Assembly: GCA_011523305.1 (NCBI GenBank)
Contig: WTHB01000030.1
Span: forward strand, 1 to 58,937
DNA from: Planctomycetaceae bacterium
GTDB taxonomy: Bacteria > Planctomycetota > Planctomycetia > Pirellulales > UBA1268
DNA: 58,937 bases
Direction of reading: 5' to 3'
Part shown: piece after piece, positions 51,050 through 53,042 of the stretch
How the letters are laid out: each line of letters opens with the position of its first letter
How positions within the stretch are numbered: position 1 is the stretch's first letter
Notes under the pieces: model-generated
What the model saw: only the letters and a program-made list of their open reading frames with translations
Told to the model about the DNA's origin: nothing
Database searches by the model: none
Program-made: the position numbers and the translations under genes

Positions 51050-51125
51050 CCTGGCGGCAGGCGACCGCCGCGAGGGCACCCCTGGCCAAACACACCCACT
51101 TTCCGTTTTTCAGAGGACGGGGGGC

Positions 51126-51153
51126 TTGGGTTTGCCGCGTTGTGATGTACCTT
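51126..51153 (+). promoter_or_regulatory. Possible rpsP promoter
   Basis: TTGGGT (51126-51131), 16 nt, TACCTT (51148-51153). It is only a fair match, but it is placed just before the structured leader. Confidence 0.35.
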
Positions 51154-51159
51154 AGAAGG

Positions 51160-51316
51160 CTCGGCGGATCGCGGGAGACCTCCTGCGGTTCGCCCGTGTT
51201 GCTGGCTGTGCCAGTGATGGCCTGTCCGCCAAGGTGGGTGGGCTGTGAGGCAGCCGTATGATTCCGGGCCGGACAGGCATGGCCCGAATGTCCAGACTTT
51301 TTGGAGAGCTGAAACC
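51160..51316 (+). promoter_or_regulatory. Structured leader RNA of rpsP, possible pseudoknot
   Basis: The ~155 nt before rpsP hold a run of strong stems: GCGGGAG/CTCCTGC (51171-51186), CTGGC/GCCAG (51202-51214), GGCTG/CAGCC (51241-51255) and CGGGCC/GGCCCG (51265-51286). The loop of the last, GGACAGGC (51271-51278), is exactly complementary to GCCTGTCC (51220-51227), which would give a pseudoknot or an alternative long-range stem. TCCA/TGGA (51291-51305) overlaps the Shine-Dalgarno. The arrangement suits an autoregulatory ribosomal-protein leader. It does not match a riboswitch or SRP RNA known to me. Confidence 0.5.
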
Positions 51317-51859
51317 GTGGCAGTGGTGATTCGGATGAAGCGGATGGGACGCACCCATCGCCCCTTCTACAGGATCTGTGCAGCCGACCGGCGGAACCCC
51401 CGCGACGGTCGCGTCATTGAGGAACTGGGGACCTACGACCCCAGCGTCTCCGACACCAACGCCCGCTGCACGCTCAATGCGTCACGGGTCGATTACTGGC
51501 TCGGTGTCGGTGCCCAGCCAAGTGACAAGGTGCGGGTCCTGATCAAAAAGTTTGGCAGCAACGGCACCCATCTCAAAGAGATGGAAGAGGCGCGGGCCCG
51601 TCTGTCACTGCCGCGGGTGATCCCCGACGCTGGTGAACCTGTCTTCGTGCCGGCTGCACCAGTAGAGCCCGCCGCTGAGGCTGAGGCACCTGCCGACGCG
51701 TCCGCGGAGAGCACAACTGAGGCGACCGCTGAAGCTCCAGCAGAAGCCGCCCCTGTCGCTGAGGCAGCCAGCGAACCTGCTGCCGCTGAGGCCGAACCAG
51801 CCGCTGCTGAGCAGCCTGCCGCTGACCCAGAACCTGCTGACGCGGACAAAGCCGAGTAG
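51317..51859 (+). CDS. rpsP: 30S ribosomal protein S16 with long acidic C-terminal tail
   Basis: 180 residues from the GTG at 51317 ([20 protein letters not shown]), with GGAGAG upstream. The S16 core occupies residues 1 to ~85, with [17 protein letters not shown] and [19 protein letters not shown]. The rest is a low-complexity Ala/Glu/Pro tail beginning after PVFVPAAP at about residue 115. Bacterial S16 is usually 80-90 residues, so the protein is about doubled. S16 binds 16S rRNA in the 30S body. Part of ffh-rpsP-trmD-rplS. Confidence 0.95.
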
Positions 51860-51877
51860 TCACCACCCGAGTGAGGC

Positions 51878-51905
51878 CCATGCGGATCGACCCATGCGGA
51901 TCGAC
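51878..51905 (+). repeat. 14-bp tandem duplication at the trmD start codon
   Basis: CCATGCGGATCGAC is present twice, head to tail, at 51878-51891 and 51892-51905. The upstream copy places an ATG at 51880 directly after GAGG, in another frame, opening about 43 codons; the ATG at 51894 is the true trmD start. Confidence 0.9.
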
Positions 51906-52610
51906 GTTGTCACGCTGTTCCCCGAGATGTTCCGGGGCTTCCTGGACGGAAGCCTGTTGGGTGCTGCGCAGGCGGCTGGCCTCCTCGACATCCGGCTGAC
52001 GAACATCCGCGACTTCGCCACCGGGGTGCACCGGCAGGTTGACGACCGTCCCTACGGGGGCGGACCGGGCATGCTGCTGATGCCAGGACCGGTAGTTGAG
52101 TGCGTTGAGTCGGTGCTGGCTGACGCTGCTGCTGGAACAGCCCCCCACGTCGCCATGCTGACCCCGGCCGGTCGACCGCTGACCCAGCAGGTTGCTGAAG
52201 AACTCGCCGGCCGCGATCGGCTGATCCTGCTCTGTGGCCGCTATGAAGGCTTTGACCAGCGGGTCGCCGACACCCTCCTGCCCGACCAGATTTCGATCGG
52301 TGACTATGTCCTTTCCGGCGGCGAAGTTGCTGCCATGGTGGTCATCGACGCCGTAGCGCGACTCATCCCAGGTGTGCTCGGTGATGAGCAAAGTGCCGCC
52401 GATGATTCCTTCTCAGGCACCGAAAGGCTGATCGAAGGCCCGCAGTACACCCGCCCCCGGGAATTCCGCGGCCTGAAGGTTCCTGATGTCTTGCTTTCGG
52501 GCGACCATAGCCGGATCGCCGCCTGGCGTCGAGAACAGGCCCTCGACGCCACCCACCGCCGCACAACCTTGTCAGCCCACTTCTCCGGCGCACACACTCC
52601 TGCCGGTTGA
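51894..52610 (+). CDS. trmD: tRNA (guanine37-N1)-methyltransferase
   Basis: 238 residues. [20 protein letters not shown] is the family start; [37 protein letters not shown] and [20 protein letters not shown] form the SPOUT trefoil knot that binds SAM; then [20 protein letters not shown]. It methylates G37 next to the anticodon and prevents frameshifts. The 14 bp covering its start are duplicated in tandem just upstream (51878-51905), so a second, out-of-frame ATG lies at 51880. Confidence 0.97.
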
Positions 52611-52667: not shown

Positions 52668-53042
52668 ATGAGCCAGCAGATTCTTGCCCACGTCGAGGCG
52701 GCCAGCCTCAACCCCAATATCGATCACTTCGAGATCGGTGACACCGTCGACGTGCACAACCGCATCCTTGAGGGCAACAAGGAACGAATTCAGATTTTCA
52801 ATGGCGTCGTCATCGCTCGGAGCGGATCAGGCAGCCGGGAGACCTTCACGGTCCGACGAATCGTGGCAGGGGAGGGCGTCGAGCGGAAGTTCCCGCTGCA
52901 CTCTCCCAAAATCGCCAAGATCGTGGTCAAGCGTTCGGGTGTCACTCGACGAGCCAAGCTTTATTACCTGCGGGATCGGGTTGGCAAGGCAGTGCGTCTC
53001 CGTGAACGTCGCACCGATGCTGCCGCAAAGGCCACCAGCTAA
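52668..53042 (+). CDS. rplS: 50S ribosomal protein L19
   Basis: 124 residues. FEIGDTVDVHNRILEGNKER and IQIFNGVVIARSGSGSRETF, TVRRIVAGEGVERKFPLHSP and SGVTRRAKLYYLRDRVGKA are the L19 signature from end to end. It sits at the 30S-50S interface. It follows trmD by 57 nt. Confidence 0.97.
   Translation: MSQQILAHVEAASLNPNIDHFEIGDTVDVHNRILEGNKERIQIFNGVVIARSGSGSRETFTVRRIVAGEGVERKFPLHSPKIAKIVVKRSGVTRRAKLYYLRDRVGKAVRLRERRTDAAAKATS

Follow-up and report, generated by a model that had tools for sequence, protein, structure and literature searches.

Two hairpins kept intact under substitution in the rpsP leader of a planctomycete and its sister species

The leader of rpsP, the gene for ribosomal protein S16, carries two hairpins (P3 and P4) in the planctomycete genome G000, and comparison with the sister species G004 shows that selection on the sense RNA has preserved both. 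They may belong to a leader that controls translation of the rpsP operon. The window is the whole stretch of G000 DNA that was analysed, 58,937 nucleotides in length. G004 is the nearest relative; its S16 is 97% identical to that of G000, and its leader is much diverged.

Based on the Pfam annotation, the gene order is an ffh-type SRP54 gene followed by rpsP, trmD and rplS. The main features of the locus are:

51125 to 51153, + strand: putative rpsP promoter, -35-like CTTGGGTT, 15 nt, -10-like TACCTT; the pattern is kept across the family
51158 to 51316, + strand: rpsP 5' leader, taken as transcribed, with the start placed from the promoter position
51317 to 51859, + strand: rpsP, ribosomal protein S16 (PF00886, E 1.1e-26), GTG start at 51317
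51894 to 52610, + strand: trmD (PF01746, E 1.5e-56)
52668 to 53042, + strand: rplS, ribosomal protein L19 (PF01245, E 1.2e-44)

The rimM gene is absent between rpsP and trmD (51859-51894); the order in E. coli is rpsP-rimM-trmD-rplS. The C-terminal tail of S16 (51600-51859) is long, rich in Ala, Pro and Glu and variable in length among relatives; that of L011 consists of a near-perfect tandem repeat. Two other readings of the leader were rejected. An rpsP start at the upstream in-frame GTG at 51245 does not fit the S16 homologues, which align from the GTG at 51317, and a 14-codon upstream open reading frame from the ATG at 51218 has no matching ATG in the aligned G004 sequence, as read by eye.

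The block CTTGGGTT-N15-TACCTT reads as the rpsP promoter. A genome-wide search for the pattern CTTGGGTT-N15-TAnnnT found a single copy in G000. In 52 genomes of the family the pattern lies directly upstream of rpsP, usually as the sole copy, and the few extra matches in family genomes sit elsewhere. Outside the family it is no commoner than a reversed control pattern. A GC-rich stretch resembling GGGGCTCG is conserved after the -10 box in the family (within 51125-51163). The CTTGGGTT box is missing in six genus members (L003-L008) and is otherwise invariant, with fixed spacing. It is unusual for the promoter of a single gene to be conserved so strictly; a sigma factor or activator devoted to it might be the reason, or stringent control.

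Because the promoter lies at 51125-51153, we infer a transcript start near 51158-51161, 5-8 nt past the -10 box, and the whole leader of about 157 nt is therefore taken as transcribed. Its predicted position, as a 5' UTR upstream of rpsP-trmD-rplS, is that of the ribosomal-protein leader class. A start downstream of 51290, which an earlier sequence-only reading had named as one outcome that would speak against its folded leader, does not apply given the family-wide promoter and the start deduced from it.

The predicted fold of the G000 leader contains the following elements:

51163 to 51194, + strand: P1, 14-bp hairpin in the predicted fold; G004 also forms the apical part, 51169-51188
51198 to 51218, + strand: P2, 9-bp hairpin predicted in G000 only, absent from the predicted G004 fold
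51218 to 51245, + strand: P3, hairpin of 12 bp, six of them G-U in G000; all pairs kept in G004
51265 to 51286, + strand: P4, hairpin CGGGCCG/TGGCCCG with 7 pairs; all pairs kept in G004
51291 to 51305, + strand: short stem TCCA/TGGA, overlapping the Shine-Dalgarno sequence
51303 to 51306, + strand: Shine-Dalgarno sequence GGAG, 10 nt before the GTG start at 51317

The sequence-only reading had counted five stems, and the minimum free energy (MFE) fold of 51160-51330 shows four to five. Its CGGGCC/GGCCCG stem is recovered at 51265-51270/51281-51286 around the loop GGACAGGCAT (51271-51280), and its last stem, said to cover the Shine-Dalgarno region, corresponds to TCCA/TGGA with arms 51291-51294/51302-51305. 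The folding energy of the leader has a z-score of -2.4 to -2.6 against dinucleotide shuffles. P4 ends 16 nt upstream of the Shine-Dalgarno sequence. In nearly all leaders of the family GGAG is found close upstream of the rpsP start, and a CCA...TGG stem over it can be seen by eye in 8 of 8 genus leaders; as this stem never varies, it gives no covariation support. The mean unpaired probability of the Shine-Dalgarno sequence is 0.21 in G000, 0.29 in G004 and 0.34-0.58 in the other genus members.

The evidence for selection comes from the alignment of G000 with G004, built with MAFFT. A DNA search in the relatives mostly returned short blocks, conserved at the promoter and the Shine-Dalgarno sequence, and G004 is the only close relative that aligns over most of the leader. 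Scored with RNAalifold against 300 column shuffles, the whole leader has a z-score of -5.6, with no shuffle as low, and the region of P3 and P4 (51215-51289) one of -8.7 (0 of 300 as low). As a control for hairpins that are merely inherited, the sequence of G000 or G004 was evolved by simulation, unconstrained and with as many substitutions as observed; against this background the P3-P4 region scores -4.9 to -6.8, and 0 of 300 simulations reached the observed energy. We also scanned 114 windows of the aligned stretch on both strands, covering the end of ffh, the promoter, the leader, rpsP, trmD and part of rplS, and the two lowest z-scores belong to sense-strand windows of the leader.

At the level of single pairs, all 19 pairs of P3 and P4 are kept in G004 despite 11 substitutions in 38 columns. 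P3 keeps 12 of 12 pairs through eight substitutions, with six pairs changed on one side and one on both, and P4 keeps 7 of 7 pairs, with a C-G to U-A change on both sides and a G-U to G-C change on one side. Judged from the sequences of two species only, two two-sided changes, seven one-sided changes and no broken pair point to conserved structure with compensatory change. All 11 substitutions are transitions, whereas the rest of the leader alignment holds 20 transitions and 30 transversions. The simulated probability of keeping P3 and P4 is at most 4e-5 at the leader's own transition to transversion ratio and rises to 0.01-0.02 when transitions alone are allowed; since P3 and P4 were picked after both folds had been seen, these per-stem probabilities are optimistic, a fault from which the shuffle, simulation and window-scan results are free. 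Sliding the pairs by 1-3 columns lowers the pairing from 100% to 32-42%. Covariation by column shuffling was null (120/500) on the alignment of G000 and G004, whose two rows are too few for statistical covariation. G004 is predicted to form both hairpins with a probability of about 1.0. In G000, G-U pairs make up six of the 12 pairs of P3; such pairs are possible only in the sense RNA, which argues for selection on it and not on a DNA palindrome.

The apical part of P1 is probably kept as well. In a hand-made structural alignment 7 of 7 remaining pairs at the top of P1 are kept in G004, with one two-sided change (U-G to G-C) and one pair deleted on both sides. The P1 region alone (51154-51213) is only weakly significant (z-score -1.0 to -2.0).

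The architecture is narrowly distributed. A covariance model of P3, P4 and the Shine-Dalgarno sequence, built from G000 and G004, matched only these two within the genus and gave nothing credible in G007 or in the five shorter genus leaders. Matches in L128 and L005 were weak and partial, that in L005 with few pairs, and were rejected. A leader-wide alignment of eight genus members has no common structure (z-score -0.5), a five-member subgroup is weakly structured (z-score -1.75), and leader pairs with G007 show no conserved structure (z-score about 0). The Rfam 15 cmscan of the leader gave no match at the gathering threshold and one irrelevant weak match at E up to 5.

Between the -10 box and the start codon lie 163 nt in G000, 173 nt in G004, 130 nt in G007 and 105-108 nt in another five members of the genus. 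The spacing is 35-60 nt in most of the family, and 98-263 nt in a few species from two further genera. As judged from these sequences, a long leader is not a fixed family trait, and leader sequence turns over fast within the genus. Long rpsP leaders (120-263 nt) also occur in L009 and L012 of genus g6 and in L122, L127, L138 and L140 of genus g3; L011, a close g6 relative of L009 and L012, has a leader of just 65 nt. The L009 leader alone folds well (z-score -3.7). No conserved structure was found among the long leaders of these other lineages (z-score -1.1 for L009/L012 and -0.6 for L122/L127/L138/L140).

Our preferred explanation is that the selected P3 and P4 hairpins act in a translational control leader of the rpsP operon, which we regard as plausible, if short of an even chance. 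The mRNA of rpsP, and possibly of trmD and rplS with it, would start near 51158-51161 and carry a structured leader of about 157 nt. This leader would act in cis to adjust how the operon is translated, would be narrowly distributed and quick to evolve, and would present the hairpin stack beside a partly closed Shine-Dalgarno sequence. Translational control is judged the most likely use because P4 ends so near to a partly paired Shine-Dalgarno sequence. A bound protein would stabilise the closed state, and by analogy with ribosomal-protein leaders this protein would most likely be S16, although the choice of S16 as ligand is a guess. The stronger version, a hitherto undescribed S16-responsive leader of P1, P3 and P4 in Planctomycetota that arose within one genus, controls rpsP-trmD-rplS and in G000 has perhaps acquired a competing second fold and with it a two-state switch, we consider unlikely. 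Against the preferred explanation stand the restriction of the P3-P4 architecture to two species, the lack of a long leader in most of the family and the preference of ViennaRNA for a competing 9-bp nested helix in G000. In addition, a comparison of the leader with the 16S-bearing locus of G000, where rRNA matches cover model positions 9-754, found no local similarity beyond shuffles; being sequence-only, it is a weak test of structural mimicry.

The hairpins could also be kept for general reasons of mRNA function, such as 5' stability, RNase protection or a separate ribosome site, with no specific ligand. Close relatives use unrelated leaders, so leader length would otherwise be free to drift. 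The quick turnover of length (105-173 nt) and sequence within the genus agrees with this, as do the short leaders that suffice for most of the family and the failure of the long leaders in other lineages to show a conserved structure, together with the z-score of only -1.75 in the subgroup. However, two hairpins at homologous places, with all pairs intact and P4 16 nt before the Shine-Dalgarno sequence, are more position-specific than such a role calls for. We rate this explanation as a serious possibility, only slightly less likely than the preferred one.

The remaining explanations turn mostly on a complementarity between the P4 loop and an upstream strand:

51220 to 51228, + strand: proposed pseudoknot 5' strand, also in the P3 5' arm; exact 9-nt complement of 51270-51278
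51270 to 51278, + strand: proposed pseudoknot 3' strand, mostly the P4 loop; exact 9-nt complement of 51220-51228

The sequence-only reading had noted an exact 8-nt complement, GCCTGTCC at 51220-51227 against 51271-51278, which is confirmed and extends to 9 nt. Counting both strands, the window holds three 6-bp hairpins in which the loop is exactly complementary over 8 nt to a stretch at most 60 nt upstream, and the longest exact inverted repeat is at least 9 nt in 3.5% of 157-nt windows. The arrangement is uncommon, yet within what a scan of 59 kb would meet, and is weak evidence alone.

In G000 the two strands could instead make a two-state switch, in which P3 and P4 alternate with a nested 51220-51228/51270-51278 helix. 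ViennaRNA gives the nested helix as the MFE state, with a probability of about 0.89 against 0.10 for P3 and P4; the ensemble difference is about 1.1 kcal/mol and the states lie about 1-2.4 kcal/mol apart. P3 is finished before transcription reaches 51270, and it is the fold predicted for a transcript cut off at 51250, so P3 may be favoured if the RNA folds while it is being made. The switch is not conserved in G004, where P3 and P4 form with near certainty, and both states leave the same stem over the Shine-Dalgarno sequence, so the output is not evident; we find a switch specific to G000 improbable.

A role in RNase processing or in transcription pausing or attenuation is quite improbable too: a long stem such as P1 and hairpins rich in GC might serve as sites for RNase III or for pausing, but P4 is not directly followed by a U run, hence does not have the shape of an intrinsic terminator, and nothing specific to such a role was found.

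Very improbable is the autoregulatory pseudoknot of the sequence-only reading, with the P4 loop paired to 51220-51227: exact complementarity over 9 nt and a nested form that is the MFE state speak for it, but 3 of 9 pairs are broken in G004, a neutral-like rate that fails the covariation test named in that reading (6 or more pairs survive in simulation with a probability of 0.25-0.83), the 5' strand is required for the conserved P3, the P4 loop of G004 has an upstream complement of only 5 nt and, from the geometry, a closed P4 would leave 2 nt (51279-51280) to cross a helix of 8-9 bp, which is sterically implausible. The complementarity is best read as a by-product, or at most as an alternative fold specific to G000, and not as a conserved pseudoknot. 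From the folded leader first proposed, the transcribed leader and its structure conserved in G004 thus stand, while the pseudoknot pairing falls and the architecture is absent from the other relatives examined.

The usual short rpsP leaders in the family share the promoter and the GGAG Shine-Dalgarno sequence with G000, but with 35-60 nt between the -10 box and the start codon they are too short for the G000 hairpin set. A structured rpsP leader that had arisen in one planctomycete genus, beside relatives with such short leaders behind the same promoter, would allow a natural with/without comparison of how such rpsP control appears. Among known ribosomal-protein leaders, those of S4 and S15 in E. 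coli rest on pseudoknots. The G000 leader is like them in placing structure beside the Shine-Dalgarno sequence of a ribosomal-protein gene, and differs in that the pairing of its loop with the upstream strand is not conserved between G000 and G004.

For the trmD operon that contains rpsP, a 2024 review states that information on regulation is lacking altogether (PMC10931766). The one S16 leader candidate in a 2020 survey, and the sole one in the literature that we searched, comes from Flavobacteria (Eckert and Weinberg 2020, PMC7247131). It precedes rpsP-rimM, whereas G000 is a planctomycete with rpsP-trmD-rplS. Compared by description, the two leaders are alike in being structured, directly upstream of rpsP and restricted to one clade, with control by S16 proposed for both.
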